A stretch of DNA of 64,000 nt. Source: Gonapodya prolifera JEL478. Its lineage: Eukaryota > Monoblepharomycota > Monoblepharidomycetes > Monoblepharidales > Gonapodyaceae. Where the stretch lies: positions 66,654 through 130,653 of the forward strand of contig KQ965844.1 of the NCBI GenBank assembly GCA_001574975.1, read 5' to 3'. Every line of letters begins with the position of its first letter. Position 1 is the first letter of the stretch. A program made the position numbers and the translations under genes. Positions 3,192-59,567 of the stretch are shown here, piece by piece. The notes beneath the pieces are model-generated. The model saw only the letters and a list, made by a program, of their open reading frames with translations, did not search any database and was not told the origin of the DNA.

Positions 3192-4252
3192 ATGCTCCGC
3201 TACCGCGATCTCCTCCCCTCTCTCCTCCCCGCACTCTTCTGTCTCCTCCTCGCATTCGTCTCTCGCAATGTGCTCGCATATTCGTCGTTCACCGTGACGC
3301 TGGGACCACGCGACCGGGCGTGTTTCTACGAGCAGATGGAGAGAGACGATAGAGTCGACATGTCCTTTCAGGTGGCCTCGGGTGGGGATGGTGTTGTGGA
3401 CTACTGGGTGAGTTGTCCAGTTGCAGCAGCTCTCTTTGGACGCAACTAACGCCGTTTTTCGACCGGATTTCTGTCGCTCCGCACGCCTCACTTTTTCGGA
3501 CACCTCCGTCACCACCCACGCGACAGGTCCAAGCCCCCGACTCCCGCATCATCTACACGGTCTTCCGCCAATCCACGACCACATTCGGCTTCAACGCCGA
3601 CCAGGCCGGCCGCTTCACGTACTGCTTCTCCAACCAATTCTCCGGTGTCGACAAGGTCCTCACGTTCACAATCCAGAGCCGTGAAGAGCGCGAGAGTCTC
3701 GAGAAGAAGTTCCGCGTGGAGGCCGGGCAGAAGCTTGACGAGGAGGCGCAGAAGGTGGATGAGGAGATTAGGTCGCTGGCGAATAATTTGAGGGTCATTA
3801 GGGACGAGCAGGCGTACATGTCGGCGAGGGAGGCCACACACCGAAAAAGTGAGTGAGGTGAGGTCTGCGAGGTCTGGAGTGCGAAGCACGGAAGACCGAG
3901 CCCCGCAAGCGCAGCGAGCTCGAGGCCTAAGCGCCGCTAGGCGCTGACCGAGGAGTCCGCCGGAGGCGAATGACCCCGCGAAGCGGAATGACCCCACGCG
4001 GAGTGACATTGTAGTCGACTTGTCGCTGGCGAGAGGCCCACGTGCCACTCTCGACGTTCTCACACTCCATCCGCACTACCGTCACCGTCCCCTTCATTGC
4101 GATTACTTCCGTCGTCCTCCCGCAAAGCCGCCGAATCCACAAACGCCCGAGTGGTCATCTGGTCCCTCTCCGAAACGGCCCTCCTCATCGCCGTCTGCGC
4201 GTGGCAGGTCTGGTACCTCAAGAGCTTCTTTGAGGTCAAGAGGGTGGTTTGA
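3192..4252 (+). CDS. p24 cargo receptor, beta (Emp24/TMED2) type, copy 1
   Basis: Three exons, 3192-3407, 3527-3848 and 4128-4252, encode 220 residues, the normal p24 length. Order of parts: a signal peptide (hydrophobic LLPALFCLLLAF core, residues about 8-30); a GOLD domain with the two conserved cysteines (RACFYEQM and TYCFSNQF); a coiled coil of about 60 residues (EERESLEKKF to EEIRSLANNL); one transmembrane segment (VVIWSLSETALLIAVCAW); and a short cytosolic tail with the paired Phe and terminal Val-Val (FFEVKRVV) of the beta subfamily. p24 proteins cycle between ER and Golgi as hetero-oligomers in COPII and COPI vesicles and select GPI-anchored cargo. A second p24 gene with the same exon plan follows 424 bases downstream. 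Intron 2 carries the GC-rich repeat described separately. Confidence 0.93.
3849..4127 (+). repeat. GC-rich intron-resident repeat in p24 copy 1, intron 2
   Basis: This 279-nt intron holds, starting 30 nt after the 5-prime splice site, the blocks GTGCGAAGCACGGAAGACC (3879-3897), GAGGCCTAAGCGCC (3922-3935), a short hairpin AGCGCCGCTAGGCGCT, GGAGTCCGCCGGAGGCGA (3952-3969) and CCACGCGGAG (3994-4003). Near-identical blocks recur in introns of unrelated genes, always in the sense direction of the host. The matching intron of the neighbouring p24 paralogue is 64 nt and lacks them. Confidence 0.8.
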
Positions 4253-4675: not shown

Positions 4676-5796
4676 ATGCAAACCCCACCCAGCTTCCTCA
4701 CCTCTTTCCGCCTACCTCCTATCCTCCTCCTCCTCCTCCTCCTCCTCTCCTCCCCAACCTCGGCATTCGTATACACAACCAACCTCCCCGGCCACGACAA
4801 GCTGTGCCTCTACGAGGACTTGAAACAGGAGCAGCATTTGGATTTGACTTTCATGGTCGATTCGTCGGATGGGGAGTTTGAGATTGATTTTTGGGTGAGG
4901 AAGGGGGAGGGGGGAAGGGAGGGGCAGGGAGGGCGAGGGAAATGGGGTGGGGGGGAGACGGGTAGAGATGGAGAGGAGGGGCTTTTGCGTGGCGATGGGG
5001 CGGGTTATGCGTATTTGAGTGGTGTAACGAAATCAACGAGCGTCGGGATTCTCGACACGCCCAAAGGCCCCGGATGGGTAGGAGAGGAGGTAGTGAAAAG
5101 AGACGTTTTATGTGGCGATGGGACGGGTTTCGCGTGTTGGGGCGGTGAAAAAGGCAGAGGGGAAGCAACGCGCGTTGGGATTCTTCACACGCCCGGCGGC
5201 CCCGACTCGTAGCATTCGCTTATTAAGAAACATTGCATGTCTCCCTCACATGAGCGCTCACCACGCCCCGCCCCTACCGCACCAGGTCATGGCGCCCGGC
5301 AATCGCATCACATTCAACAACCTCCGTCAAGCCACGGGCAGCCACCAAGTCGTAGCCGAGCAGGATGGGCGGTACGCCTACTGCTTCAGCAACTACAACT
5401 ATCCCTCCGCCAAGAAACTGACGTTCTCGCACTACGGTCCCGACGAGCGCGATAATAATCAGAGAAAGTTTCGGGCGTCGGTCGGGGACGAGATTAGCGA
5501 GGAGGCTAAGAAAGTGGATCAGGAGATTATGAGCCTGGCGGAGAATTTGAGGATGGTGAGGGATGAGCAGACTTATATGATGGCGAGGGAGGCGAGGCAT
5601 CGAGAGAGTGAGTTGTGGTTTGGGTAGCGAGGCGGCGGGGCACGCTCACGATCTCTGACATCAAATGACAGCTGCCGAATCGACGAACGGACGAGTGGTT
5701 ATCTGGTCGCTTGCGGAGACGGCTCTCCTGATTACCGTGTGCGTGTGGCAAGTGTGGTACCTGCGGAGCTTTTTCGAAGTGAAGCGGGTCGTGTGA
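4676..5796 (+). CDS. p24 cargo receptor, beta (Emp24/TMED2) type, copy 2
   Basis: Three exons, 4676-4894, 5286-5607 and 5672-5796, encode 221 residues. The signal peptide has an unusually pure leucine core (eight Leu in a row near residue 20). The GOLD domain keeps both cysteines (KLCLYEDL, YAYCFSNY). A coiled coil (EEAKKVDQEIMSLAENLRMV), one transmembrane span and the FFEVKRVV tail follow. Exons 2 and 3 have exactly the same lengths as in copy 1 (322 and 125 nt) and the introns sit at the same codons, so this is a tandem duplicate. The luminal halves have diverged strongly, so the copies may bind different cargo or partners. Intron 1 is 391 nt against 119 nt in copy 1 and contains a tandem repeat. 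Confidence 0.93.
4983..5212 (+). repeat. imperfect tandem repeat of about 100 bp in p24 copy 2, intron 1
   Basis: Two units, about 4983-5077 and 5108-5212, share GGCGATGGG(G/A)CGGGTT near the start and GGGATTCT(C/T)(G/C)ACACGCCC near the end. Both lie inside intron 1. The unit differs from the common intron repeat, although both are GC-rich. Confidence 0.6.
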
Positions 5797-13974: not shown

Positions 13975-14980
13975 ATGGTGAGCAGATGAGAGCCGACATC
14001 AGTTGGGAACAAAAGTTCAATGAAGGATACTCTCTGGAACGGAGTACTCGGTGGAGTTTTTAGTGGGATACTTTGTTGAGGGCGGAGTGAAGCCGGACAT
14101 GGATCACTGGGGCGATTGGACGAGCTCCGGAGCCTGGCTGGCTGGCGATGTTTGCAAAATGAATTCCGGATTCGTCTTCCGTGGCGCGTTTCCCTTGTCC
14201 GCGTCGTCTCACAAAACTTCCGGATGTCCCGTCGCGCAGACCAAGAAGAGAAGAAACAATGGCCGGTCCAAGCACGGCCGTGGTGCCACCCCCATCGTCC
14301 GCTGCTCCAACTGCGCCCGCTGCGTCCCCAAGGACAAGGCCATCAAGCGCTTCCTTGTCCGCAACATGGTTGAGCAGGCTGCCGTGAGGGATTTGCAGGA
14401 GGCTTCCGTGTACAATGGTGAGTCTTCATCTCTTTGGTCGAGCCGAAGTTCTGAGACGCGAAGCGACGTCTAGAGTGCGGAGCACGGAAGACCGAGCACT
14501 GAGGCCTAAGCGCCGCGAGGCTGTCGGGCAGGGGGGAGGAGGTTGCACTAGTTCATTCTGGATGCCTCAGAGTATTCGCGGACAGAAAGCGGACGAAGAC
14601 GATCATTTTTCGTCGTGATTGCATTTCTAACAACGTCATATTTCTCTATCTTCAGAGTACGCTCTGCCCAAACTGTACATCAAGACCCTGTACTGCATCT
14701 CGTGCGGCATCCACTCCAAGCAGGTCCGCGTACGATCCAACGAAGGTGCGTTGTATTTCCCGTTCTGCGTCTCGTACCTTCCTGTGACATCTCCCCCATC
14801 GCCGCATGTCGCCGCACTCCAACTCCCTCTCCCTCCTCATACACCCCACCAGGCCGTCGCGACCGCACTCCCCCCGTCCGCCCCCGGTTCAACAAGGACG
14901 GAAAGCGGATCAACCCCGTTGGCGCCGGAGGTGCCCCCGTTGCCGGTACCGGCGCTGCTGCGGCTCCCGCGAGGGCGTGA
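13975..14980 (+). CDS. RPS26: 40S ribosomal protein S26 (eS26)
   Basis: Four exons: 13975-13977 (the ATG alone), 14240-14417, 14656-14745 and 14853-14980, for 132 residues. The sequence starts [16 protein letters not shown] and keeps the zinc-binding cysteines (VRCSNCARC and [11 protein letters not shown]), the KDKAIKRF motif and the [18 protein letters not shown] core. It ends in the Ala/Gly/Pro-rich tail usual for fungal eS26. eS26 sits at the mRNA exit channel of the small subunit. The lone-ATG first exon was chosen because the sequence ATG-GTGAGC at 13975 gives a perfect donor, and the acceptor at 14239 leads straight into ACC-AAG-AAG, the second codon of the family. Intron 2 contains the GC-rich repeat. 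Confidence 0.93.
14418..14655 (+). repeat. GC-rich intron-resident repeat in RPS26, intron 2
   Basis: Contains GTGCGGAGCACGGAAGACC (14475-14493) followed by GAGGCCTAAGCGCC (14501-14514), in the same order and orientation as in the p24 copy 1 intron. The CCGCCGGAGG block is missing, so this is a partial copy. Confidence 0.75.
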
Positions 14981-18647: not shown

Positions 18648-20593
18648 TCAATTCACGTCTGGAATCAGCACACACTCACGCCACCCCCACCCCCAAACAC
18701 ACCCACCATCCTCATCAATCTCCACCGAAAACGCCAAAATCGCCGCAACCCCACCCAACTGTCCCAGCTGCTCGCCCGATCCGTGCGCGGTGGAGAGGAT
18801 CAAACAGTCCCCGCCCCGGCATTTGACGCCTTCGACGAGCTCGACGTATGAGCGGCGGGTTGGGATGTCGGCCGAGCTGACGAATGCGGGGGGAGAGGGG
18901 AGAGAGGGTTACCGGTATAAGGGGAAGCCCACGTCGACGCGCGGCGAGCCGACTCACCGAAACAACGCGTCCGTGACCATGAGCACCTCGACCTGCCCCC
19001 CCGCCTCTATCGCCTTCTTCACATGTCCGAACCCATACCACGCCCTCCCCGGATCCTCATCCAGCATCTTCCAGAACCGGCGCACCTCCTTGGTCTCGCG
19101 GGAGTATCTCGTGTCCTGCACCCGCGCCGCAACGGAAGGGTCCAAAAGGGCTTCCGAGAGGGACGCGAGGTGCGCGGATGAGCAGTGCGCGAGGACGATT
19201 TTGGATTTGTTGTGCAGGAGGGGGGTGAGGTGGAGGCGGAGGGATGTGGTTTGGATGTAGGTGGAAAGTTGGTCCTTTGGTTGGTTGGGTGCGAGGGGAT
19301 TAAATTGTTGCATCATTAGTCGTCACTACGATGAGAATGTCACACGCGTCAACGTTGGCAGTCAGTCACTCACTTTTACGAACCCCGGACTCGCAAGCAC
19401 GAGCACTTTCACGACCTCAAAATCCACATACTTGAGAATCGCCTGCACGACCTGCTCGAAAAACTTATCCGTTGCCTTATCCCTCACGCCCTGCATACCC
19501 TTCCGTTTCCTCGGCACGGCGACCTCGATCCGCGCCCTGACAATCGTCATGCTCTGTGTCACAAGGCACACCTGCGCAAGTCCTTCCTGCAACACCACAG
19601 CGGCGATGTCGGCTCGCTTGGAAGGGTCACACGCATCCATGACCTGTTGGAGCGCGATCGAGTCCCAAAAAGGTTTGGTGAGGGTGAAGTTGCGGTTCAG
19701 TTCGAGGTCCAGGGTGTGGTATTGGCCCATCTGGAGGAGAAAGCACGCTCAGATGGTATCATCTGCTGCTGCTTTGACGGGAACATGGCTCCGCTCTGCC
19801 TTCTTGTCTCTTGCGGTAAGAGATTGACCCTCTGCGAGTACTCGGCCTCCACTTTCAACCCCTTGTTGCCGTTTCAATCGACCATTGCGCTTAGGCCACA
19901 GAGTTCGCTCCGCGAGATTCTTCCTCTTCGCGCATCACTCGCTTCCAGCGGACTCCTCGGTCCAATACTCACTCCGCGCTATAACATTCGCGCTCCACGC
20001 TGTGTCCGCTGTGTCATTCGCGCTTCGGCTTCGCGCAGGTCAGGAACCTCGCCTCCGGCGGACTCCTCGGTCCAATACTCGCTTCGCACAGGATCACTCG
20101 CCTCCGGCGGACAGCCTCGCTCCGCTCGGGGTGCTCTCTCCGGTCGGACCGACTCGCCTCCACTTCACTCGGCGACTCGCTCCTTCGTCGCTCGCGCCTC
20201 GTTCGTTCCCTCTCACCCCCCGCCCCTCACCTTGACAAACTTATTCTCCTCCACATTCCTGCCCTTAACGCTCAAAACCCCGCCCTGAGTATCAAAATCC
20301 ACGCTCTCGACCTGAATCGTCAGCTGCATCCTCACGCTCGTCTTGTCCGTGGTCCCTGTTGAGGACTCGGACACGACCTTGCGGATCGCCGTCGCGCGGA
20401 GGATGTCGAGGTGTTGGATTAGGTTGTAGGTGTGCCACATGTCCTGGCGGGGTGCGGAGGTGGAGGGGAAGGGAGGTGGGGACGTGGTGGACGGCAGCAC
20501 GGGAGGAAAGGGGAGACACACCTCGGTTTCTTCGGGGCACAACGTGATGCTTCCCGAGGAGTCTTTTTCCAGATATTTACGGATGAGCTTCAT
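18648..20593 (-). CDS. DOM34: Dom34/Pelota, ribosome-rescue factor
   Basis: Five exons on the minus strand: 20522-20593, 20231-20443, 19374-19730, 18958-19274 and 18648-18876, for 395 residues, close to the family norm. It starts MKLIRKYLEKDSSGSITLCP, as Pelota proteins do. It continues with the Sm-like N-domain (EDMWHTYNLIQHLD, LTIQVESVDFDTQGGVL), the central eRF1-like domain (ADIAAVVLQEGLAQVCLVTQ, VPRKRKG) without a GGQ loop, and the C-terminal domain (YGFGHVKKAIEAGGQVEVLM, LSTAHGSGEQLGQLGGVAAI). With Hbs1 it splits stalled ribosomes in no-go and non-stop decay. Intron 2 is 500 nt, far longer than the others, because it holds several copies of the GC-rich repeat. The C-terminal 20 residues are poorly conserved, and a further small exon is possible. 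Confidence 0.92.
19731..20230 (-). repeat. multi-copy GC-rich intron-resident repeat in DOM34, intron 2
   Basis: In the sense direction this intron carries three copies of the CCGCCGGAGG block (20099-20113, 20049-20066 and a variant at 19939-19956). Two are preceded by the same GAGTATTGGACCGAGGAG string. The GCGAAGCGCGAAT texture and a GTGGCCTAAGCGC block near the 3-prime part are also present. This makes it the largest and most internally repeated member seen. Confidence 0.75.
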
Positions 20594-22102: not shown

Positions 22103-23862
22103 GTGCAGAAGACGGATCTTTATTGGGTGAAGGCAATTGGTATAGTAGCTATGTATGGGTGAACAATTATGTTATCGTTGGTTTGGTTTACGCGATGATG
22201 TAAGGGCTCCCACGGGCGACGCCTGATTGAAAATGAAAGAAAGTCCCATTTGAAGAGTGCTTCGTGTCGTGTGATGATAAGATACTCTTTAAGCGGGTAA
22301 AATACAACATTTGAACGTGCCAAGTCGCAGGAGATGTCTCTGGTAGGTGGTGGTGATGACTCTCATCGTTCAATGGTGGAGAAAAAGTATTGGGATCTGC
22401 ATATAATCCTCTGATCCTTCTCAACCTCGCACAATACGCGCTTCCCAGTTATATTCACTGCATCAAGATAGGAAAGCGTGAGCCACATGGCAAATTGAGA
22501 TGAATTGCGTATGCTATACTGGAAGAGCACATCAGTGGGTTGGTGTTTAGTAATCTGGCAACCATGTGGAATATAACACACGTTGGCCTGCGACCAGGAT
22601 ATTCAGATACCAACCCCCAGAGTGACAGCCTTAAAAGAAGAGGAAGCACAAATCAAAACCGGATGACCGCAATTGCTCTGGGTGAGATGTTGTCATCACA
22701 TAAATGTAGAATAGCACTAGTACGGCTGAACCACGATCCCAGTTGAGTTGAGACTCAAGTGGGCAAATATAAAAGTCGATAGTTGGAACATATCTTCAGC
22801 TTACATTTCTTGGTTGACATTGGGATGTGTGGCAACGTGACAGCTGGTGGCAGTGGTCACTGACGTGAACTGATGGAGTGGGAAATTCAATTCAGGATGC
22901 GTCCAAATGTCTTCTGATTCATTCGGATTTACTCAGGAATTTCCAAGGTTTCCGAGACCGAAATCAGAAGTTTCTGGTGCCTCCGTCGGAATCACAGGAA
23001 CGTTCAGCAACGTTCAGCAACGCTCAGCAACGCTCAGCAACGCTCAGCAACGCTCAGCAACGCTCAGCAACGCTCAGCAACGCTCAGGATTTCCAGATGT
23101 GATTCGTTCAGAAACATTCAGATTCAGCCCTTCAGAATCGTTCTGATTCCCTCGGGAAACGTCTTAAAATTCACGGCCGTGTAGTGTTCGATTACTCCCG
23201 AAATACAGACGATCTTCTTCTGTAAAGTGGAACGAGACCACCCGCTTCGAATGCACCCGAGGAGAAAAAGGTGCGAGCATTTGAATAAAAGTGAAGACGA
23301 ACTGATAATCTAGCCATCATCCGACGTAACGCAAATGATCTTCTTATTCCAAGCGACACAACAGCATCGATCCGTCGAGAAGCAAACGTTTTTCATTGGT
23401 TTTCAGATAGAGAATGCAAAGTATCGGGGCATGGTGCGCCATCCTTACCAATATTTATTCGAAGCAGAGAAGCCGCGTTCCTCAGGCAGACAACCGAACG
23501 AGAGTGCAAAGCCAATCGTCCGCCAACCAGTACGGGCCTTCCTGATCACCCGAATGCGTCCACCAGGTAAATACGCAGAGTGTGGAAATGGGTGGCTCTT
23601 GTAGAAGGGCACGCTTCGAGATAGCGTGCAAGTTTAGTAATGTCGGTCGGTCGCAGTCACTTTGCCCCACTTGGCTTTGCTGAGTCAGTGGAGTTTTGTG
23701 TCGGGGCGAGGACGAGGGCTTGCGGGACGCTGCTGGAGGTCGAAAGAAGACGTCGTTGTCGCTTGGACGGGATTCGGGAATCGTTCGCGTCCCGCAACGC
23801 AACGTGGCAACTCCGATCACCACCTCAACTAGCGATTGCCCACACCCAGTCACCAAAATGCA
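22103..23862. other. no gene recognised
   Basis: A 1.7-kb AT-richer stretch. It contains the 10-bp tandem repeat listed separately, flanked by looser CGTTCAG and ATTCAG variants up to about 23,140. No coding exon was supported. Confidence 0.5.
23001..23087 (+). repeat. 10-bp tandem repeat, unit CGCTCAGCAA, 8.7 copies
   Basis: Eight full units and a partial one. The first two units read CGTTCAGCAA. Degenerate TTCAG-containing variants surround the array on both sides. It is open in two frames but no gene is apparent. Confidence 0.9.
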
Positions 23863-24623: not shown

Positions 24624-24862
24624 CGTGGCCCCGACGCTCATACTGCCCCGGCGGACTTTTTGCTGGTGAAAGTGTAGTTGATTGAACCTTTGTCCGTATC
24701 TCAGCGGCCTGAATTTGTCTTCAACCATGCATTCCACAACCGGAACCACACGAGCGTCCAGGTCGGAAATTGCTATGGGGAGACGCTGCGAATGGTGTAC
24801 TTCGCAGTATATAATCAAAATGTATAAATCTACAGTTCATGACTCCAGTTACGATCAATCTA

Positions 24863-26821
24863 TCACACAGTCACCAATAACTTGAATCCCGTAATCTTCA
24901 AGCGCATTGCGATAAAGATGGCAGCAGAGATTAGCCAGATAACACCGGTGTAAATTTGTACGGTGGTGTAGTCTTGGCTGAATCCAAGTGGGGAGTACGG
25001 GTTGGGGTAAGTGTTTGCGTCCAAGATACGGCCACCAATGAAGTTTCCAAAGATGGAACCTATGAGCGAGAAGACGTATTTGCGTTAAGATTGAAGCTGG
25101 TCTTGTTCAAAGTCAGATGACACCAACCGAAGGTGAGCGACGCCAACATGACTCCAAGCTTGCTTGCGGAATCTTCAGCTCCCCAAATAGAAGGCACGAC
25201 AATTGGAAGCTGTGAAGTGAACTGCGCACCAGAAGCACCGTACTGAACAGCGAAAGATCGATTCGGTCAAACCGCATTTACAAACTTAGAGCCGCGCACT
25301 CGAGAACTCACCAACAGCGCAAACGCCAAAAGTGTTCCATACGTGGTAGCGTTGCGCCACAGTGCAAGTGAGATAACGCCCGCGACGATGTTACAAAAGA
25401 TGAGGATGTTCAGAGGTCCGACGATATTGTTCAGACTACCGTATATAAAACGGGAGACGACGGTTGCCAAGTTCAAGAAACTGAGAATCCAAGTTACAGT
25501 CGTAGTATCGATACCGAGCTGGGCGCCGTAGGCTAGGCGAGACGGTATCTCAGACTCCGTAAATGTAAACAGCAAAGTTGGCGAAGTCCATGCTCACAAG
25601 TCATGTAGAAGAGCGGGAGGGTGGCGCTGAAGTTAGACACGATACTTCCAATGAAGCAAAGGATGAAAACGGGCTCTTTGAATGTTTTGGGATCGAAGGT
25701 TTGCTTCTTGGGCTAGTCGGGATGAAACAGCAGTCAGCAACCCTTGATGTTAACAACATATTCGTTCGAGAGGTATCTGGAACATACCTGGGGAGGAATT
25801 CTGGAAGAGACTCCCAAAGCAGCTACGCCGATTACTGAAAAACATTGCACACCCAACGAATGTATAAGACCCATAGTGGAGCACTAGTAAGCAACAGAGT
25901 TGTGCTCACCGCCGATGCAGATGAAACCAAGTGTTCTCAAAGTCCAGGCGAGACCAACGCGGTCCAAGAGGTATTGCGTCAAGTTTGCTGATTGACAACG
26001 AAATGCGATTGGTAAACCGGATTTGAGAAAGAGAAAATATTTCACTCACAGAAAGCAAAACCTCCGATGGGACTTCCCAAAGACGCAACACTCTGCACAA
26101 AGGGTGATCGCAAGTTTCAATGCAAGAAATTGATCTTAGAGGATATTCGTGCTTTACCATCGCGAGACCAGTCTTCGTGGTGAACCAAGTAGGAATGGCG
26201 GCAAGTGCGACCATCCACGATGCCTGCGCTCCGATTCCGTTCGTAATTCCCTGGAAGAGAACGATCATCCACACTTGACCCGGACCTACAGATGGAACAA
26301 AAGTCAAACTCTGGGCATTTCGACAAATGCACCGAGTGTAGTAAACATACCAGCAAAAGATGCAATAATGTATGAGATACCGCTGAGAAATGCCCCACCA
26401 ATCACAACCGGGCGATATCCAAAACGGTCAGCCAGAGCACCCAGGAATGGAGCTGCGACTGTACCGGCGGCGAGTGTGAACCCTCCGGTAAGTGTGTAGA
26501 GAGTGAGCGAGGTTCCCGGGAAGACGTTGGCACCATAGTAGTAGCCCTGCAAAACGGATGAACGAAATCGAAAATGGAATGAGCGAACCTCCTGTCAGGA
26601 CATGCCCTCACCAAGAATACACTCCAACTAAACAGCGATGTCCCCCAGCTGACGACGGCGAGCACGAAATAGCAGGCAACCACACTCCAGGCTTTGAGTC
26701 CACCATCCGGTGCTTCACCGTACTCCGGAGCCTCGACTTTCTCGATGTCCCCCGCCAACTCCTTTTCGGCAGCGAGGGGCGATGTAGCAGTGCTTTCCGA
26801 GCTTTGATGGTCTGACGCCAT
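24863..26821 (-). CDS. MFS transporter, fungal monocarboxylate-type, copy A
   Basis: Ten exons on the minus strand: 26612-26821, 26351-26546, 26158-26285, 26050-26092, 25910-25987, 25788-25834, 25598-25706, 25312-25532, 25128-25242 and 24863-25059, for 447 residues. An acidic cytosolic N-terminus precedes DGGLKAWSVVACYFVLAVVS, the entry motif of the fungal MCT-like family. The loop 2/3 MFS signature GALADRFGYRPVVIGG is intact, as are WMIVLFQGITNGIGAQASWM and a second-half counterpart (RFIYGSLNNIVGPLNIL). Twelve helices can be counted. Relatives carry monocarboxylates, nicotinate or riboflavin, and the substrate here is unknown. Every exon has exactly the same length in copy B at 30-31.7 kb. 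Confidence 0.9.
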
Positions 26822-27078
26822 TGGTTCCACTGAAAAGGTATTTTTTGCTGACCTTCAGGCTCGGTCGGAGCAGTTCTTCTGGTTCTTCTAAAGGTGAGCG
26901 TAAGGGCGTGCGGAAACATTTCGTGCCCGGTGGATTGGGTCCCTGGCGGTTCCGGTCTTAAAATTGCCCCATGCCTCCCAAGCACGAATCCGATATTTGT
27001 CTCCCTCTCTCAATGCAGATTGTGTTAAGAAGTGAAGGCGAAGAGTCAATATTCTTGGTTGGCTCTATCGACTCGTGA

Positions 27079-27235
27079 TTCCCCAACACCACTCAACAAA
27101 ACCCCGGAATGAAACCAAACCGCGATCGAACCCTCGACACGACCTTGGCCTCAAGTCCGTGCACATCGACCTGAACCCCCGTACACCTGGGCTGGTTCGG
27201 CAGGGCGATCCTTCGTTGGCAGGTTCAAGGTCTGG
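27079..27235 (+). pseudogene. short fragment of ankyrin-gene 5-prime end
   Basis: ATGAAACCAAACCGCGATCG at about 27109 and the following 60 bases match the start region of the ankyrin gene (23863 onward) but soon hit stops. This is a non-coding relic in the segmental duplication. Confidence 0.5.
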
Positions 27236-27249
27236 TCCTTTGTGAGGAC

Positions 27250-27370
27250 CACAGTTGCTCCCCATTCCCATTTCTGTTCAAGGAACGAAGGCCGATCGGA
27301 CGCAACGCTGGGTAGGTCATTCTTCAAGCATTCTCGCAACGAATTTCACCAGCCTTTCCCCACGTCCTTC
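27250..27370 (+). other. copy of the SF3A2 5-prime leader
   Basis: CACAGTTGCTC, CCGATCGGACGCAACG and the following TAGGTCATTC region match the leader and first donor of the intact SF3A2 gene (34,260-34,360). The initiating ATG of the intact gene corresponds to CTG here. This separates the SF3A2 relic's leader from its body at about 27.96 kb. Confidence 0.6.
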
Positions 27371-27539
27371 CTTGCCGCCCGCGGCCGCCCGGTTCATTGC
27401 ATACCCGTTGCTTCCGGGTTTGAAATCGGCCCTTCTGCCTCCCGACCTCGAATCCGATATTTGCCTCCCTCCTTGAATTCCGATTGTGCTGGCGAAGTGT
27501 CAATCTTCTTGGGTTGGGCTTTACCTCAACTCGGGATTC

Positions 27540-27780
27540 CCAAACCCCACTCAACCCCCCCCTTGAAACCAGACTCCGACCAAACCCTCGATGACACCTC
27601 CGCCTCTTGCATGTGCGCATCTACTCGAACCCCCTTCACCCAATTGCTGGACGTACTCGAGTTCGACTGGTCATTCCTCGCGCCGGCATTAGCAGTGACT
27701 TCAAGACTGCCAGGAGGATACTTGATCGAGAATTTCCGATTGCGAGGGATTCGGTGGGGTATACCGGTCCGTCTTGGGTT
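27540..27780 (+). pseudogene. ankyrin-gene exon 1 fragment
   Basis: Bases 27600-27780 read CASTRTPFTQLLDVLEFDW and, in another frame, TARRILDREFPIARDSVGYTG. These match ASTRTPFTQSLDELEFDR and VRRLLEREHVMARGSAGYTG of the intact gene. A frameshift lies between, and no later ankyrin exon follows. Confidence 0.7.
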
Positions 27781-27959
27781 TTGCGCGATGGCGGCCGACT
27801 TTCAATTTGATCACTCGACTCGCAAATGTTGCTTTCCAACCTTTCCCTACACTTCCATCCCGTTTCTTTAAAAGTACAACTTCTGCAACCCTAAAACTCT
27901 ACACCCCTGTCCTTCCGATCCTTCCCGTCCCTTCCCTCCACCTACAAATTCCGTACTTC

Positions 27960-29421
27960 CAAAATTGTCCGGAAGGAAGCCCGGGTCCGGCGTTATGGCA
28001 GGGTACAGCGAGAGTAATGTGGAACGGAGGGAATGGCTGCGCAAGCTCGCGCTGGAGACCATCAACCTGGCGAAGGATCCTCTGTGAGTGCAGTGTGGAA
28101 GGGTCGTGCTATATACCTTGCTGTTTCAGTGTCACTGACTCCCGTGGGCTCTTTCACGTCCAACCAATAAGAATCGGGACCCAGCTCTCACGCAGTTCAT
28201 GAAAAAGCGCACCGGGACGTACAAATGCAAGCTCTGTCTCACACTGCACACTAGCAAAGTGTCCTTCCTTGCACACACGCACGGCAAGAGGCGCCAGACA
28301 GACTTTGTCCGCGGACGCGAAGGACCAGTAGACGCAGATACCGAAGATGATCGAGGCGGTGAAACGGAAAACAGAAGGTGGTTGAACGGAACTCTTGATG
28401 CGTATTCAGGGGAGCGGAGTGCACCACGAGAATGGACTCGTCTTGTGGAACACAGGAATCACTTAATGTGCGGTGAGGAGAATAACTGCAACTGGAACTG
28501 CAACTGGCGAAATCGACCATTCACCAGATTTTGGGCGTCAAGGACAATGGAGACCAGCCGTCTAATGATGGGTTCGGCCACGAATTGGTGTGAACTGCGT
28601 GCCACCAGAACTACTTGATCGGTTTAGCCACGTCGCATGGTTGAGAAGGGCAAATGCGATGGTTTCATCCCATTGGTATGTCACTGAACGATGCAGACTT
28701 GTCCGACGCGGGTTGCTGGTAGCGTTTTACATATTTCGGATGAGAAAGGACGCACTTTGGATCCCTGCGATGCTTTTATCCATTTGAACGAGTCTCGTGA
28801 CGGGAAACGGAAAATGGGATCGCTTGGTACCGTTTATTAAGTGACCGTGCATGGCTTTGGACTAGAGGTGAAGTGCCTTACGTATTATAGTAATGCATTA
28901 TCAATCTGGAGAAGCTACAGGATGGAGGGAGGCAAATAACCCCTTCATCTGATTTGGCAATATCGAAGAGTATTTTCATCGATACCCGATCATTAACTCA
29001 CCATTTCTCCAAGCCAAACAGGTCCGCGACCCCACAACCCGCCAAGTCGACTCCTCGTCCAAGTCTTAACAGTATCGGCGCGGGAATCAAACCGCGACAC
29101 CTCGAGCTGCACCAGGAATTCCCCAACCGGGCGATCCAGTACCTCATCTTAGCCACCGAGTCGTAGGAAAACGTCTACTTCCGCGTTGAGGCGCGCGGGA
29201 TCTATCCAGCCGAGGGACGGTTTTGGATCGGACAATATTGGGACCCGGACGACAAGACGTATTCGCTCCAATTCTTGTTCAAGAATCCGGGACCCGTGGG
29301 GTACTTTGGTGGCAGTGGAGGAGGTGGGCAATGGGGTGGGCTGATGGCGGGAAATGTGACGCCAACAGTCAGGGAACCCGCTCACCCATATGGGCCGCGC
29401 CCTGTGAGGTACATGCGTTAT
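27960..29421 (+). pseudogene. SF3A2 (Prp11) copy, decayed
   Basis: Compared with the intact gene at 34.3-35.9 kb, exon 2 survives at about 27964-28085 (GYSESNVERREWLRKLALE in translation, but shifted at its start). Exon 3 starts at about 28200 (MKKRTGTYKCKLCLTLHTSK) and loses the frame after the zinc finger. Exon 4 is recognisable at about 29017-29421 with in-frame stops (after DSSSKS and at the position of AAEP) and small deletions. The order and spacing of all exons are kept, so it arose by DNA duplication, not retroposition. Confidence 0.88.
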
Positions 29422-29776
29422 AGGCACTTTTGTACGGTGTTGAATTCAGATATCATTTGCTCGGGGTCGTGCACTGTCGTCCTGCACCATAACACAGGTC
29501 GAAGACTTCATGTTATCGATTTTTTTTGTGAAGTTCCACCTCACGATCCACCATTCTCGTGAAAGGGCAATTGCTACGCCGATGTCATATTATGTGTAGA
29601 TGAAGGGGACCTCGCCCAATGTTTCCGTGCGTACATGTACTGCAGTGTACTCATGAATTGAACAGACGTTCCCCAGCCTTTTAAGTATTGGCCCCTTGCC
29701 CCTTCTTTCCCCTTTTCTTCATCAAAACTAGTAAATTAGCTACAATGATACATGAATTAACAAGCTCTCAAATCAA
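29422..29776. other. no gene recognised
   Basis: Lies between the dead SF3A2 copy and the 3-prime end of MFS copy B. Nothing coding seen. Confidence 0.5.
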
Positions 29777-31729
29777 TTATACAGGCACAAACAACTTGAA
29801 TCCCGTAATTTTGATCCGCATCGCAATGAAAATCGCAGCACCGATAAACCAGATAATGCCGGTGTAATTTTGCACCGCGGTGTAGTCTTGACTGTATCCA
29901 ACTGGAGAGTACGGGTTGGGAAAAGTATTCGCGTCCAAAATTCGGCCACCGATGAAGTTTCCAAAGATGGAGCCTATAAGCGAGAAGACACATTTGTGAT
30001 AAGATTGGAGTTGATCTGACGCATAGCCAAGCGATGACACCGACCAAAGGTGAACGACGCCATCATCACACCGAGCTTGCTTGCAGAATCTTCAGAGCCC
30101 CAAATCGAAGGAACAACAATAGGAAGCTGTGCGGTAAACTGTGCACCAGTAGCTCCGTACTTAAAAAGAAGGATCAATGAGTCGAAAATTATGGCGGAGT
30201 AGTGTGGAACTCACCAACAACGAAAAGGCCAACAAGGTTCCATACGTTGTAGCGTAGCGCCACATAACAAGACCCACAAGGCCGCCGGTTAAATTGCAGA
30301 AGATGAGGATGTTGAGTGGTCCGATGATATTGTTGAGGCCACCGAAAATCACACGTGCGACAACGGTTGACAAGTTCAAGAAACTGAGAATCCAGGTAAC
30401 GCTCGTGCTATCAATGCCGAGCTGAGCGCCGTAAGCTGGAGAGAAGGCGATAAGTATCATTCCGAAAATAAATAGTCACAAGAACATAGATCTCACATGT
30501 CATATAGAACAGCGGGAGGGTGGCGCTAAAGTTGGATACGATACTTCCGAGGAAGCAAAGAATGAAAACGGGCTCTTTGAATGTTGCGGGATCGAATGTT
30601 TGCTTCTTGGGCTGGTCAGGATGAGACGGTTAATTCTTACTACACCGAGTCCGATAGAAAGTTGTATTAAACATACCTGAGGAGGAATTCTGGAAGTGAT
30701 TCCCAAGGAAAACACCCCGATTACTGAAAAATCCCATTGCGAACGCAGCGAGATGTTTGAATCCAATAGTGTACCGCGAAAGGTTTCCACCTGCATCATT
30801 TTGCTCACCGCCAATTGTTAGGAAACCGAGAGTTCTCAAAGTCCAGGCGAGGCCAACGCGGTCCAAGAGGGCTTGTGTTAAGTTAGCTGATAGATAGAAA
30901 AAGGATTGTAAAGAAATGTGTGAAAAAGATGATTTCTTTCACCCACTGAAAGCAAATCCTCCAATGGGACTTCCCAGGAACGCAACGCTCTGTACAAAGT
31001 TGCCCGCGAGGTACAATTAAGATTCGTTCCAGAGAGGATATTCGCGTCCTTACCATGGCGAGTCCGGTCTTTTTGCTGAACCAAGACGGAATGGCAGCAA
31101 GAGCAACCATCCATGATGCCTGTGCTCCGACACCGTTCGTAATTCCCTGGAAGAGCACGATCATCCATACTTGGCCCGGTCCTACAGTCGATCCGATGGT
31201 CAAACTCTGCGGATTTCGACATGTTGGCAAAATGTCGCGAACGTACCCGCAAACGATGCAATAATGTATGAGATACCACTGAGAAGCGCTCCACCAATCA
31301 CGACCGGGCGGTATCCGAAACGGTCTGCAAGATTACCCAGGAATGGGGCTGCGAGAGTACCGGCCGCGAGTGTGAACCCTCCAGTTAGTGTGTAGAGAGT
31401 AAGCGACGCTCCCGGGAAGACGTTGGCGCCATAGTAGTAACCCTGCAAAACAAATGTGCGAAGTAGAATCGAATGGAATGAGTGAACTTGCTTGCATCCG
31501 CTGTCAAGACGTAGCTCACCAAGAAAACGCCCCAGCTAAACAACGATGTCCCCCAGCTGACGAAGGCGATCAGGAAATAGCAGGCAACCACACTCCAAGC
31601 CTTGAATCCACCATCCGGTGGTGGGCCGTACACCAGCGCCTGATCCTTCTCCAAGTCCGTTTTCGATTCCTTTTCGGCGGCGAGGGGTGATGTGGCGAGG
31701 TTTTCCGAGCTTTGAAGGTCTGATGCCAT
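29777..31729 (-). CDS. MFS transporter, fungal monocarboxylate-type, copy B
   Basis: Ten exons on the minus strand: 31520-31729, 31247-31442, 31054-31181, 30947-30989, 30809-30886, 30677-30723, 30497-30605, 30215-30435, 30045-30159 and 29777-29973, again 447 residues. All exon lengths equal those of copy A, and both lie on the same strand 4.9 kb apart. Motifs: DGGFKAWSVVACYFLIAFVS, LADRFGYRPVVIGGALLSG, WMIVLFQGITNGVGAQASWM and IFGGLNNIIGPLNIL. Differences cluster in the N-terminal tail and in helices 9-12, while the helix 2/3 loop is nearly identical. All frames and splice sites are intact, so both copies are probably expressed. Confidence 0.9.
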
Positions 31730-51523: not shown

Positions 51524-54500
51524 TTAGTCCCATCGCGCCATCACTCTCTGCTCGCCTTCACCCTTCTCGCCTGTCACTTTCACAGGCTCTGTTGGCTTGT
51601 ACACCTCAGTACCCCACCGCGGGTGCACCCGCTTATACAGCGGCATGATCACAGTATCTTGTGCATTCATCGGGCCGTCGAAGAGACATTTCATCCGTCC
51701 GTGCGTACCTTGGGAGGCGATGAAGATATCGACATTTGACGAAATCAAACCGAGTGGGCTCGAGTCAAAGTCACAACCCACCGACAGACTCCCGGATGGT
51801 ACCACTGCGACCGTACTTGGTGCGGAGCTGGACAGGCTTGAAGTAGTCCACGTCTTCAGGGTTGAAGAACATGTATCGAACGACGACCTTGAAGCGAGCG
51901 AGAACAGAACTTATCAGCACATAAATACGGTCGCGAGCCTTATAATACAGCGACAACGTACCGTCTTCTTGTTGATCTTGTACGGGTGTCCCGACAAAAC
52001 AACCCTCTTGGCAATGATACGTGTCACGTCCGATGGCATCGACGTTCCGGTCGCAACCAAAAAGGGTGTATCTTCGAGTTAGGGGGTGAGGAGACACACA
52101 GTGAGTGTTGGCACGGAACCCAATCGAGTATGTCCACACACCTGTCCCCATTTCGACCTTCCACGCCAACACGCCGGTCTTATCCCAACACACTGGCCCA
52201 AACCACGTCGCCACCACGCCCTCCTTGCCCCTCCGACCACCCTTTTTCGTATCCTCCTCCCCTTCGCCGCCATGGTACATGAATCGCCTCAACAGCGCGA
52301 CCCCGTTGCTTCCCTGCCCAGGGTCCGAGTACACGGGCGCGGCGGTGAAGCGCCGGAACCCGACTTGGAGGATCAGCGGGTCCTTGGACTTGATGGGGTC
52401 GGAAGAGGCGTGATCCGCGTGGTGGACGAGGTGGGCGTGCGAGAGGGAGTACTTGTGTTCGTGCGGGAGGAGGGAGACGAGGAAGATTGGGTGGGATGGT
52501 TTGCGGGTAGCTGAGGTCGTGAATGCATATGAAGCCAGGTCAGTTGGGCACCGCGTTGCGAATCTCTAAACAAAAACAGAGGACTCACCAACCCAGGACT
52601 TGGGCACGCCCTCCAGCACAACCGTCACTCGCGTACCCCTCTGCACCCAGTTCTTCACTGCATCCTGCTCATCCACATCCATCCCATCCCCTTCCCCTTC
52701 GTTCTTCTTCACTTCCACCTTGGCTCCCTTCCCATCCCCACCTTCCCTTCCCGCCCGCGCCATCGCCGTTCCCCGCGCCCTCTTCCAGTCTTCAAACGCA
52801 AACACACGCCCGTACTCCTCGGGCAAATTTTCGTAAGGGTCCCACCCGCTCGTCCTCGAGTCAGCCAACCCTCTGTACTTTGCGAACCGCACACGGGCCG
52901 GACTCTCCCGCGGCGTGTCGAGCTCGTCAGGGTGGGACAGGTCAAGCGCGGCTTGCTCTTCGCGTGTCGGGGGAGCCTCCCGGGAGGCGGGCCCGACGTC
53001 GGCGGGGTCGGAGGCGTCCGAGGGGATGGACCCGGACGACATGGACTCCCATCCGTCGGCGTCAGGGTCGTCGTCCTCGTTCGCGTTCTCTGCGTCCCCG
53101 TCGGCTTCGGGTCCGGCTTCAACACAGCTCATCCCCACATCTCCATTCTCTTCCTCCTCCTCCTCCACATCATCACCCTCGCCCTCACCCTCCTCGTCAA
53201 CAAGCCACGCCGCCTGGTACGTCGACGTTCCCTTTGGCATCTTCTTCACCTTACCCCCAGCGTGGCTCTGCGTCCCGTCTCCCATGCGACTGGCACCGTT
53301 CATACCCTCAGCTCCCGCCATTTCCTCGTCGGTTGGCCAGGTTTGTTCTTGTGCGAGTGGGTCGACGGGGTTGGATGATACTAGGTCGTCTCGCAGGGAG
53401 GGGTCGGGAAGTGCGAGGATGGTCGGTGTTGTGGAAGAGGGGGCCGTGTGCCGGGGGAGGTAGGAAGGGTGGTCGGCGGGAGTCTCGATCTGGTGTTGGT
53501 GAGCGAAAGTTATAAGTAAAGTGCGAGCGGAGGAGGGCAAGAAAACAGGAACATTAAAGGCGAACTCACCCGCCGCACCGCAAAGTCCCCTCCGTCCACG
53601 AGATACGCCAACCTATTCGCGCACAAATTCCGGCCCCTGATCCACCCCGTAACCTTCAACAACCCCGTTTCCTCGCCTTCCCCTTCCCCGCCCTTACCCG
53701 CCCCGCCCTCCTCCTCATCCTTCACCCACTGCACCCCCTCACCCACAAGATAACTCCTCCCCGCTCTCCACCCAACCTGCAAAATCCTCTGCGTGGCCAG
53801 CGTCCGTACGAGCGCGTCCACGTCGGCCGGGACGTCGAGAGAGAAGGGGCGAGAGGAGGTGGAAGTGTAGGAGGGGAAGTGGTCTTGAAGGTACATGTGG
53901 AGAGAGCGCCGGATGCCGGTGTGGTGTCTGGGTGGTGTGGTGGAGAGGTGCTGGGGGTGGGTGGGTTAGTATAGGGTTTTGTGGTGTGCAGGCATGTTGG
54001 TGGTTTAACGTCAAGGATTCCCGCCCTACCGGTCGAGCATAATGATTTTGACGGTCATCCAACATGTGACCACGTGTGACCTGCTTCCATCTCTCCATTG
54101 GCCGGCCCGTATCCACCACCGTATCATCCATTCCACGTCCCCCCCCCCCCCCCCCCCCCCATGCTCCAACCACCAAAAAACAAAACACACCTGAACAACG
54201 CCAACAACCGTCCCAACACCTTGCGCCTTGATCGCCGCCAATAGCTTATCACCCCACGCATCCACCTCCTCCACCGCCGAAAGGACGAATATGACGTAGT
54301 CAGCGACTTTGCACGCGTCCAGGACGGCGAGTGTTGAGCGGGGGAGAGCGAGTAATTGGAAGCGGGAGTGGTGGGTGGGGACACTGTAAACACGTACACG
54401 GGTCAGAAAAGAGTTGGGTCAGTCAATCATCGTGCCGCAGTTGTGCTGTGAGTACACGGATTATTCTTTGCCATTGGCGGAGTCCTCGGTCAGTGCTTCG

Positions 54501-55082
54501 CATTTGGGCCTCGGATTAACTCACTTGAGCGTGACTGGCCCTGTAATCCCGTTTTTGAACATCAACAACTCCTCGACATCCATGGCAGACGTCCCATCCA
54601 CCCCACTTCCCAAACATCTCTTCCACACGGTCTCAACAACGTGCGTCGCATTGACATCCGGGCAGAGTGGCACGACTGCGACAATTTTGGGTGCACCGGA
54701 CTTCTTGTCCCACTCTGGCGCAAAGACCCTGTTCTGCGCAACGAGTGACTGCCGTTTCGACCGTTGGTGGACCTTTGCGGCGTTTCGGCGGTCTGCCTTT
54801 GCGGATGATTGGGCAGACGAGACGGATGCTTTTGAGGAGACTGAGGAGATATGGGAGCGGTGGTGGAGTGGACGTTCGATCTTTCCTGATGGCGTGGGGG
54901 ATAAAGAGTAGGAGTGGGTGTGAGATAGGCGCCTAGTAAGCGGGGTAGACAACTAGAAAGAACTGAGACCCACCCTTGCTCTTCTCCCTCAGAGACCCTT
55001 TGCTCGCATGTTTCGACTTGAACTTCTTGTTCTGCTGTCTGAGTCCGCTCGCACGGTGCTGATGGCCGCCGTCGCTCGTCAT
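51524..55082 (-). CDS. TSR1: Ribosome biogenesis factor Tsr1
   Basis: Nine exons on the minus strand: about 54970-55082, 54525-54932, 54191-54383, 53570-53950, 52589-53489, 52142-52510, 51962-52071, 51782-51887 and 51524-51708, for about 921 residues. It starts [20 protein letters not shown] (family form HRPGPLKQQNK). It continues with a GTPase-like domain without catalytic motifs ([20 protein letters not shown]), [20 protein letters not shown], a long acidic insert, [35 protein letters not shown] and [20 protein letters not shown]. Tsr1 acts in late 40S maturation. The first junction is uncertain: the strong donor at 54973 is one base out of frame, and a weaker GTCTCAG donor giving a 37-nt intron fits. 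A lost base in the G-run is an alternative. Confidence 0.92.
54139..54160. repeat. run of 22 C
   Basis: Lies in TSR1 intron 3 (a G run in the sense direction). Length is prone to sequencing error. Confidence 0.9.
54384..54524 (-). repeat. short GC-rich intron-resident repeat in TSR1, intron 2
   Basis: In the sense direction, 8 nt after the donor, CCGAGGCCCAAATGCGAAGC is followed by ACTGACCGAGGACTCCGCC (forward 54474-54515). These correspond to the GAGGCC and ACCGAGGAGTCCGCC blocks of the longer copies. The CGGAGGCGA end is changed to AATGGCAAAG, so this is a diverged or truncated copy. Confidence 0.65.
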
Positions 55083-55594: not shown

Positions 55595-58429
55595 ATGCCG
55601 CCTCTCTCCCGCCCACTGCGCCGCCTAGCCTACTTCTCTCTCGCCACGGGCTCGCTCTATGCTGTCGACCACTTCGCCTTCTCAGACTCCATCCAGCGCT
55701 CATTCCGCACGTTGAAGGCCGGTGCGCTCATTACGCTCGATTACAAGATCAATTTTAGAGAGGGTGCTGGGCTGGAGGACTTGCAAAGGATTCATGAACG
55801 CACGGCGCAAAGGATTCTCGACACGTGTAAGAAGAATGCGGGGTTGTATATCAAGGTGAGCGCGAGCGCGAGGCGAGAAGCAATACGGAACGGAGCGAGC
55901 CGAAAACCGCGCGAAGAGGGATGTGCTGGTGGAAATTGAGTGACGGAGTCGTGAGGCGCGAGCGAAGTGAGACCTAGGTCTCCACTGGGCAAGACGAATA
56001 ACCATACACGAACAGTGGAAAGACGAGGCGTCTGGTGAGGTGAACACTTTACCGAAGCGAATAGTGAGAGTCCGAGGCGAGTGGTCCCACGCGGAGCGTA
56101 TAATTCGAATACTTCGTGTACGATGGATGGATAGATGGAGAGTGTATTCACGACTGGAGGATGATAGGGTCAGCTCACTACTTAGTGGACGTGAGGTCGT
56201 GGTCGTGTCATTTGGTGACAACATTCTCACAAGTTGTTTTACCGTGTCTGGACAGTTTGGTCAAGCCATTGCCAGTCAGAACCACGTCCTCCCTCCGCAG
56301 TACAATGACACCTTCAAGGTAAGTCAGCATCTCTCTCTTCGCACTTGATCTATCCTGAAACTTCTTTCCTCATATTTTATTTTGCACTGCCCAACTACCC
56401 ACCGTTTCCAGGTCCTCTACGACTCCGCCCCCGTCGTCCCCTCCACCGACGTCCGCACCCTCTTCATCGAAGAATTCGGTCACCCTCCGGAGGCCGTCTT
56501 TGACGAGTTCGACTGGACGCCCATCGGGTCGGCGTCCATTGCGCAGGTTCATAAGGCCAGACTCAAGGATGGCACGCCCGTGGCGGTCAAGGTGCAGAAG
56601 CCGTATATTAAGACCCAGATGAATTGGGATGTGAGTGTCTGTTGGTTGTGGGGTGACTTGAGTGGAAGGGATCAATGTGTGGATCGGATTCGCTCCGGGT
56701 GGTCTGGTGGGGTGTGCAAAGAGTTGTGAGAGATCGGGGGCAGATTGAAGCATCAGGAGCCTGCCTGTGCCTTTAACCTACGTTCTCACCCACACTCACC
56801 GTCCCACCACAGCTCGCATGCCAATCCATCGTAACCCACGCGCTCGAATACCTCTTCGATATCCCCATGACCTGGACGCTCGACTACACGCACCGGCACT
56901 TACGTCTCGAGACCGATTTCAGGAACGAGGCCAGGAATGCAGAGAGGGCCGCCAGGGATTTTAAAGGGGAAAAGGAGTTTAGGGACGATGTGTATGTGCC
57001 CAAGGTGTTTTGGGAGCATACAAGTGGGAGGGTTATGACGGCCGAGTGGATTGATGGTGCGTTTGTGGTGGTTGTGAGGGTGGGGTTTGAGTGAAGGTTC
57101 TCGCACCAACCGGGCGGAAGGAAGTTTGCGTCGAGGTTGGCTGCATGTTGACTGACATTTCCCGACAATCTCCACCCGGCACGTAGGAGTACCCCTGTCC
57201 GCCACTGAAGAGGTCACCAAGCGATTCGACGCGACGGCCGTGGTGGGGAAGATTGTCGACATGTTCGGCTTCCAGATTTTTAAGAGCGGGTGAGCCGTTG
57301 TTACTCATTTTGACGAAAAAGTGACAATGTTCGCTGATGATTTGATGTGATTGCGTGGTACCTCGAACCCGTGGATCCGCCTTGCCTGCGACGTCGCAAG
57401 GTTCATACATGCCGACCCTCACCCCGGCAACTTCCTCATCCGACCCAACCCTTCCAACCCTCGCAAACCGCAAGTTGTGCTCCTTGATCACGGGCTGTGA
57501 GTGATGCGTATGATTTCTGTTGTGCGCGTGCGGAGAACACCTCGATGGATTGATGAACTTTCTCGTTGCACGGGTTGATTCAGGTATGTCGAAGAGTCTC
57601 AGAGCATGCGATTGACGTACGCACAGTTCTGGAAAGCCTTGATGGTCAGTCTTTCCCCCGTCCACTTGTCCCACGTGACACATGAGTGATCGTCTCCCTC
57701 ACCTCCATTGAACGAACTACCAACCAACCAACGTGATCAGCTCATGGACCTCCCCACCCTCACCCGCATCACCGCCGACTGGGGCATGGGCGACGTCTCC
57801 ATGGCCGCGACGTCGGCACTCATGCGTCCCTTCGACCCCACGAAGGCCGCTCAGTCTGGTACATCGGCGCTGTCAAAACCGACGGCGAAAGATGTGTTCG
57901 AGGCCCAGATGAAGGCCAAGGAAAGGGCGAGGAAGATGCTTGTGGATCAGAATAAGTTCCCAAAGGAGTTGTTGTTTGTGGGGAGGAATATGACGATTGT
58001 GAGGGGCGTGAATAAGGGCTTCGGGAGTCCGGCGGATCGGGTGTCCATGACGGTGAGTACACGTCCCCATGAAAAGACACCGGATATCGTGTCAACTCTT
58101 GACAAACAAAACGATTGTAGGCACGCTGGGCAATGCGGGGCACATCCTCTTCCGAATCCATCGCTTTCGCTACATCTATTCTGTCCACCCCACCGACGAC
58201 ATTCTCGTGGCTCCGTCTGTACATCTCAGAGAACATCTCCCTCTTCCGATTCGAGCTGCACCTGTTTACCCTCGCGCTGTCGTTCTGGGCGACAAAGGTG
58301 TACGGGTGGCTGGCGCGAGAAATATTTGGTAGGAAGGTGCTGGGGTATGAGGAGATCCTCTCGGAGGGTGCCAAGTTGGCGATGGGGCGGGAGTTTGGAG
58401 TCGTGTTGGATGAGAGGGCATTCGAGTGA
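55595..58429 (+). CDS. ABC1/ADCK-family atypical protein kinase-like protein
   Basis: Nine exons: 55595-55855, 56256-56318, 56412-56630, 56813-57056, 57187-57289, 57401-57496, 57584-57644, 57741-58052 and 58121-58429, for 555 residues. Family landmarks: GLYIKFGQAIASQN (the KxGQ motif, across exons 1/2); DWTPIGSASIAQVHKARLKD (Ala-rich loop); VAVKVQKPYI (VAIK-like lysine); FRNEARNAERAARDF; VMTAEWIDG; and FIHADPHPGNFLIRPNPSNP with VLLDHGLYVEES, the catalytic-loop and metal-binding equivalents. A basic, poorly acidic N-terminus suits mitochondrial import. It most resembles the ADCK1/Mcp2 branch, implicated in mitochondrial lipid homeostasis, rather than Coq8. Intron 1 is 400 nt and holds a GC-rich repeat. 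A decayed tandem copy lies downstream. Confidence 0.93.
55856..56255 (+). repeat. GC-rich intron-resident repeat in the ABC1 gene, intron 1
   Basis: Starts at the donor itself (GTGAGCGCGAGCGCGAGGCG), contains GGAACGGAGCGAGCC and GGCGCGAGCGAAGTGAGACC, and near 56086-56100 has CCCACGCGGAGCGTA, shared with the membrane protein and p24 copy 1 introns. The corresponding intron of the ABC1 pseudogene (60797-61026) lacks these strings. Confidence 0.6.
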
Positions 58430-58695
58430 GTGTGCCAACTGCCGACTTGATATCGAACTAGTGCGATGTGACACACCCGTTTCTACAGCGCATGAGACTC
58501 GTCGTCATTCCCGACGGCCGACTCTACCGTGATTCGGTAGCGGACATAAGATTTCGGTGCACCTCTTGTTATACCCGTAGAACATTCATGTCGCACTAAA
58601 CCATTTTCCTTGTATTCGCAAATGCTGAATCGTCCCGACCAGGGTCAAATAATCCCACATTTCAATATCAAGTCTGTCTATTTCGGCGGTATCTG

Positions 58696-59567
58696 CTACA
58701 AATAGTGTCTATAACACTTTTCTGAACTGTTTACGTTCGCCCGCACATTGAGTATGTGATATCTGGTTAGGTCGAGTTCTCTGAGTCCAAAGTGCGTCAA
58801 TTGGAGGTGTGGGAGGTAGGGTGAAGTCAGGGGATTGTGAAGGCCGCATATTTCGAATTTGGTCAAAGATGGGTTGTTTCTCAAAATGGCGTCCAGGCCT
58901 TTGATGTACACCTCTTGCACATCCTGATCCCTGATGGTGAAATAAAGTGCCACTACTCATAGTATTCCAGAGCACAATGTCGCAGCTATTGTCGGCATCC
59001 ACACAAGCGGTGTGGAGGTATAAGAGAGAGAGAGTATTCTTCCGGCACCCCGTTCAAACAGGTGTTTCGTACTGGGGTGCGATGGCTCTGTGAAGAATTG
59101 ACACATGACGAGGTCAAATAAGCGCCCTGGTTTGCTCGCTCATTGTCTCGAAGCACTGAAAGAGCTCGGCGTTATATCCGCGCTCTGATCATCTTGCCTC
59201 CCGGTCCGCAGCGGAGGCGAGTACCATAAGTGCTTTTCCCAATAAACAACAGCTTGCGACAATCGCAGGCGCGTGCCATGCTTTGTAGAGAAGCGAGTAG
59301 AGTACGATCACAGTTTGGTTACCGCGTGCTCAGTCGGCGCTTATCTTCGGACGTGGGCGGGGAAGTCGACAAAAGAACTTACCATCCGACAAATGGTAGA
59401 AAACTTTCCGGTCTCCACCACACCATCCCGTCCACATAGCTGAACATGTGATGCATGATCTCCGGCACGGACGTGCATCGTTCTGCCGCGGATGGGGTGC
59501 TCCGAATCCGAGGGTGAGGGGGTTTGGAAGTACTCGGATCCCATGTGCTTTCCCCCTGAGACATCAT
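58696..59567 (-). pseudogene. F-box/LRR-like fragment
   Basis: Minus-strand frames read TSVPEIMHHMFSYVDGMVWW (59379-59567), an F-box start. Further along, GLDAILRNNPSLTKFEICGL and PHLQLTHFGLRELDLTRYHI (58696-58953) have leucine-rich-repeat texture. The pieces are in different frames with stops, so this is a relic. Confidence 0.5.

Follow-up and report, generated by a model that had tools for sequence, protein, structure and literature searches.

An abundant family of GC-rich hairpin arrays lying mostly in sense near the 5' splice sites of introns in Gonapodya prolifera

The window (the whole 64,000-nt stretch of Gonapodya prolifera DNA analysed here, positions 66654-130653 of contig C114 in an assembly of 47.56 Mb and 207 contigs) contains six predicted introns that carry members of one repeat family, together with an array-free intron at the homologous position of a tandem p24 paralogue (Table 1). 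Two of the host genes, DOM34 and eS26, were identified by protein match, and the remaining gene names are readings of translated exons or come from an earlier sequence-only reading. The eS26 protein matches solved ribosome structures in a structure-database search, the best-scoring entries being, we presume, those of fission yeast, Chaetomium and Neurospora. A small self-trained gene finder recovered the p24, RPS26 and DOM34 introns, with a GTGAGT donor and a C-rich acceptor; for the p24 intron it returned the boundaries proposed in the sequence-only reading without having been given them, and for the 44 kb gene it placed the donor too far upstream (44861), which was corrected from the sequence and the homeolog.

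Table 1. Array introns and related features of the window.
Feature	Position in window	Strand	Basis
p24 copy 1, intron 2, with array	3849..4127	+	gene-finder boundaries; sequence
150-nt segment starting GCGAGGTCTGGA, missing from the homeologous intron on C148	3867..4016	+	filled/empty alignment; sharp 5' edge in 65 copies
Array-free 64-nt intron at the homologous position in the neighbouring tandem p24 paralogue	5608..5671	+	tblastn with flanking exons; sequence
RPS26 (eS26) intron with array; block 1 at 14475-14493	14418..14655	+	block match, gene finder, protein identity
DOM34/pelota intron with long array 19887-20161	19731..20230	-	gene finder, protein identity
Membrane-protein gene (44 kb gene), intron with array 44402-44592, conserved on C148	44359..44601	-	sequence and homeolog
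Putative TSR1, predicted intron with degenerate array 54478-54513	54384..54524	-	array match
Putative ABC1, degenerate array fragment in predicted intron 55856-56300	56075..56099	+	array match

The sequence-only reading had proposed that these six introns share ordered sequence blocks, and all six do carry the repeat; the DOM34 array lacks a close copy of block 1. Within the window block 1 has three matches against 0.03 expected, block 3 five against the same chance expectation of 0.03, and block 2 four against 0.20 (highest shuffle 3). The weaker copies suspected in the putative TSR1 and ABC1 introns are real, if only as degenerate pieces (minus strand 54480-54513, E 3e-7; plus strand 56075-56099, E 1.6e-5). 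Three hosts lie on the plus strand and three on the minus strand, and the array reads in the host's sense direction in all six.

Each array is a string of short GC-rich hairpins with GNA (GAA, GGA) or GNNA loops, often joined by CCGAG; DNA hairpins of the GCGAAGC type are extra stable. GNA triloops with a stem of at least 4 were counted 70 times in introns in sense against 25 in antisense; the exon counts were 14 and 18 and the intergenic count 26. With the bait regions left out, the signal is weak (28 sense against 17 antisense in introns). A stem of at least 5, a setting too strict for 4-bp stems, gave no triloop signal. GNNA tetraloops with a stem of 4 were not enriched in introns (21 sense against 17 antisense). 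In module M3 the outer pair was A-T in 56 copies and G-C in 7, giving 63 Watson-Crick pairs among 75 copies against a shuffle mean of 52 and maximum of 62, these 75 being related copies chosen by length and end letters from 185 pattern matches; a second M3 pair showed no excess of paired changes (p 0.37). Whole array introns did not fold clearly more stably than dinucleotide shuffles in three folds of two introns (z of -1.26 as DNA, +0.78 and -0.93 as RNA), and conserved structure derived from whole-intron folding was rejected, the folds of these two introns being ordinary for their composition. As for the marks of a SINE (a Pol III/tRNA-like head and a poly-A or simple tail), neither an Rfam match at gathering scores nor a tRNA was found in the window, and no tail was noticed by eye in the inspected copies. 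COX1, sought as a sign of organelle sequence, was not found in the assembly.

The family is real and abundant. Block 1 (19 bases, at most one mismatch) has 93 matches in the genome, 49 forward and 44 reverse, with none for the reversed control; a 24-base block (at most two mismatches) has 256, with a control of 0; and the exact 12-mer of the M3 tail occurs 494 times, with a control of 9. Five M3 12-mers across 12 non-bait arrays extrapolate to about 1,200 arrays, and six arrays in a 64 kb window to about 4,500, so that one to a few thousand arrays is a rough figure for the size of the family. It was not noticed in a literature search, which reached few subscription papers.

We then considered where these copies lie. 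Sixty-five of the 93 block-1 matches were examined; the match at L054, the C148 homeolog of the 44 kb gene, was fetched and stands outside the counts, and 27 others are not included. Among 81 arrays detected, 79 were tallied (L054 and L063, which contains N, being omitted), and these include homeologous pairs (L032/L037, and the C148 DOM34 array L053) and so are not all independent. Using labels from the gene finder, which mispredicts some contexts, 66 of the 79 lie in predicted introns in sense, four in introns in antisense, eight in intergenic DNA and one in an exon; among non-bait arrays 12 of 15 are intronic and in sense. The claim that unrelated genes carry the repeat in introns and in the host's direction is supported in the loci fetched across the genome, where the arrays are not equally common in intergenic DNA or in antisense. 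Of the stricter claims, that every copy is in sense has the four antisense arrays as exceptions, and that no full copy lies outside introns holds nearly, if not strictly, L044 being the one block-1 copy of the 65 around which we saw no convincing intron or donor. Intergenic DNA accounts for 29% of the long loci but for only 8 of the 79 arrays by label, and four of those eight have a sense donor scoring at least 4.5 upstream.

A sense donor of at least 4.5 lies within 100 nt upstream of 59 of the 65 block-1 copies (the lower quartile for predicted introns is 4.4), a count that alone is of moderate weight since random 130-nt stretches reach 4.7 in one of four; the median score is 6.3 at block-1 copies against 3.0 at random, and 57% of the copies score above the 90th percentile of the random set. 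A few other block-1 copies have weak donors only. Of the 13 arrays not labelled as intronic and in sense, seven have a donor of at least 4.5 (L009, L015, L026, L028, L046, L072 and L077), suggesting that the labels understate the sense share; two more, L042 and L079, have weaker donors, and L013, L024 and L076 fall outside the donor scoring. L009 and L072 show pairs of oppositely oriented arrays with about 1 kb between them; upstream of each array, in its own reading direction, is a donor-like site, the arrangement that divergent genes would give.

The copies lie close to the 5' splice site, as had been proposed: the median distance from the donor to the start of the array is 21.5 nt (62 arrays), 52 of 65 copies have their best-scoring donor 19-45 nt ahead of block 1, and 62% of 61 arrays occupy the quarter of the available intron space nearest the donor (KS p 5e-9). 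Across the 65 copies conservation ends sharply between -13 and -12 of block 1, at a 5' end reading GCGAGGTCTGGA (also given as GCGAGGTCTGGAGTGCGAAGCACGGAAGACC), with extra modules upstream of it in some copies; the 3' end is variable, and no common 3' end was seen among the arrays. Where a clear donor was present at 45 nt or less, as in 49 of the 65 copies, the bases between it and the element are variable and rich in G (46.5%, against 28.6 +/- 2.9% in matched array-free introns, with a maximum of 39% in 2,000 resamples), an excess that may partly reflect the additional 5' modules. Long G runs gained no support as a feature of sense introns (10 sense against 19 antisense in introns). Such runs, some broken by N, lie near or inside arrays L012, L020, L024, L041 and L063, where they may mark assembly trouble or polymorphic tracts. 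A twintron arrangement, in which the element would be an intron of its own, was rejected, as no consistent acceptor was seen at the 3' ends by inspection.

One account of this distribution is that an ordinary short non-autonomous transposon inserts anywhere and that selection alone leaves the intronic copies that are in sense and near the donor. Trained splice matrices place strong acceptor-like sites in 66 of 79 arrays read in antisense and in 10 of 79 read in sense (9.5 per kb antisense and 0.75 sense, against a background of 5.4), so that an antisense array behind a donor would act as a splice trap and selection can explain the orientation; loss of exonic copies would likewise be expected. 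The sense strand is not itself free of splice signals, with donor-like sites in 29 of 79 arrays, about the background, against 6 of 79 in antisense. The sequence-only reading had offered selection against antisense insertion as one explanation, and the acceptor-like counts lend this support. However, intergenic copies should survive such selection, and just eight of the 79 arrays are labelled intergenic, half of them with a sense donor; nor does free insertion predict the strong 5' skew inside introns. Selection cannot by itself give the intergenic scarcity, the restriction to introns or the G-rich landing close to the donor, and we consider insertion anywhere followed by selection alone unlikely.

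The sequence-only reading had also likened the repeats to introner-like elements, in which case every copy would have created its own host intron. Many similar sequences in introns of unrelated genes, in sense and close to the donor, are what introners show. Yet in each of the three gene families compared, which are not a survey, the intron is found at the same position in relatives that lack the array: for p24 the homeolog on C148 and the tandem paralogue, and two paralogues each of an MFS-like and a GALE-like gene. The p24 homeolog on C148 retains the same, diverged intron and lacks the 150-nt segment (window 3867-4016); here deletion in place of insertion is not strictly excluded, though the tandem paralogue also lacks the array. 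These comparisons imply that in each of the three families the element inserted into an intron that was already present, and no creation of a new intron is seen in them. Introns with a sense array have a median length of 287.5 nt (n=32) against 122 nt without (n=297) in the long loci, and the median array span is 157 nt, so array introns are longer by about one array. The intron remainder 3' of the array has a median of 116 nt (62 arrays), and these acceptor halves appear unrelated by inspection, while the stretch between the donor and the 5' end of the element is variable. Published introner surveys require similarity to near both splice boundaries (PMC9860276), whereas here the element is close to the donor side only. 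In the defining sense, then, the introner-like reading fails in the tested families, and as an account of the whole family it is very unlikely. Of the terminal inverted repeats and target-site duplications typical of a MITE or other cut-and-paste DNA transposon, neither was recognisable at the one clean filled/empty site, whose flanks have diverged, and exon-flank searches at L022, L013 and L036 found no second gene copy and so no empty site.

A similarly improbable alternative is that recombination or template switching, with the common 5' splice site as its anchor, carried array sequence from one intron to another, which would account, without an enzyme, for the sense orientation, the closeness to the donor, the intron-only location and the variable 3' ends. 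The conservation nevertheless stops at the 5' end of the element, and the copies have little in common in the stretch that separates it from the donor (CGAC after the donor is common to 3 of 49 copies); this sharp edge argues that the donor anchor was not generally copied.

Further information comes from homeologous contig parts, which are about 90% identical and rearranged in order (C114/C148, C102/C154 and C81/C116). The duplication is partial, three single-gene searches having given one copy each, and a hybrid, haplotigs and segmental duplication are candidate origins. Eight homeologous array sites were compared. The p24 site is present/absent; the DOM34 array is shorter on C148 and has different modules; the array of the 44 kb gene is conserved on C148; and the array shared by L032 and L037 (C102/C154) is conserved with one hairpin, GTCC...GGAC, inverted. 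Two array introns of a NOG2-like gene are restructured between homeologs, one of them with a 36-nt module adjoining CGAG repeats present or absent, as are both compared array introns of an ABC-transporter-like gene. The modules thus behave as units that differ, are missing or are inverted between homeologs. That selection maintains the arrays as functional RNA structures within introns, whether as splicing aids or as small RNAs, as the GNA hairpins enriched in sense introns and the paired changes in M3 might suggest, is hard to credit given modules that differ between homeologs about 90% identical, folds no better than shuffles, the lack of an Rfam match at gathering scores in the window and the absence of arrays in relatives of the same gene.

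The reading we prefer, with a probability of roughly 0.6, is that the arrays belong to a large nuclear family of non-autonomous mobile repeats which settle in spliceosomal introns that are already there, probably through transcription-linked insertion together with selection. The family is probably mobile, judging from its copy number and the one filled/empty site. A new array would tend to land directly downstream of the 5' splice site, on the G-rich non-template strand, which transcription probably leaves single-stranded, in an R-loop-like state; the G-rich landing flank suggests such a link to transcription. Landing of this kind would fix the orientation and favour transcribed introns, and selection would then remove exonic copies and those antisense copies that bring acceptor-like sites. 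More tentatively, the arrays may represent a class of intron-dwelling mobile elements that inserts at the 5' end of existing introns while they are being transcribed, choosing the G-rich non-template strand and so arriving in the acceptor-poor sense orientation, its modules amplifying and shuffling in place; this is a possibility that we would not yet favour.

Intron gain is often inferred when similar sequences turn up in many introns. The family described here mimics many signatures of introners (intronic, in sense, close to the donor, with no recognised terminal inverted repeat or target-site duplication) while inserting into old introns, so that surveys of introners should include a comparison with array-free relatives. 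If the proposed targeting is correct, the family would offer a case of a mobile element whose insertion is directed by transcription state or splice-site context, and if the intron-dwelling class is real, it would be a counterpart of introners that invades introns without making them.

Two reports (PMC9860276, PMC4457414) describe introners in Micromonas, Dothideomycetes, Symbiodinium and others, including ascomycete families without terminal inverted repeats and target-site duplications, and the likeness to the arrays lies in many related sequences in introns of unrelated genes and in genic enrichment. Introners give rise to new introns, bringing or recruiting the two splice sites, whereas the arrays occupy only the 5' part of an intron that pre-exists where tested. 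The palindromic repeats of Volvox carteri organelles (PMC2670323) resemble the arrays in being short small-loop hairpins with nested insertion, present in introns and spacers, and are thought to be selfish; they pervade organelle DNA, intergenic regions as well, and in mitochondria they are AT-rich. The arrays, unlike these, are nuclear, GC-rich, mostly intronic and mostly in one orientation. Fungal mitochondrial double-hairpin elements and GC clusters are likewise mobile hairpin or GC-rich modules, as cited in PMC7218506. Both differ from the nuclear arrays in being mitochondrial. We know of no splice-site or strand rule for either. The repeated stwintrons of Hypoxylaceae also involve similar intron material spreading in fungal genes, and are described as complete introns nested in introns, with an internal intron that splits the donor; the arrays, by inspection, have no consistent 3' acceptor.

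The window also contains tandem diverged gene copies at about 24,857-31,733, 27,971-35,860 and 55,595-62,181, in blocks about 74-89% identical and spaced about 4.9, 6.5 and 4.7-4.9 kb, and a 10-bp tandem repeat array of CAGCAACGCT units at 22985-23097.
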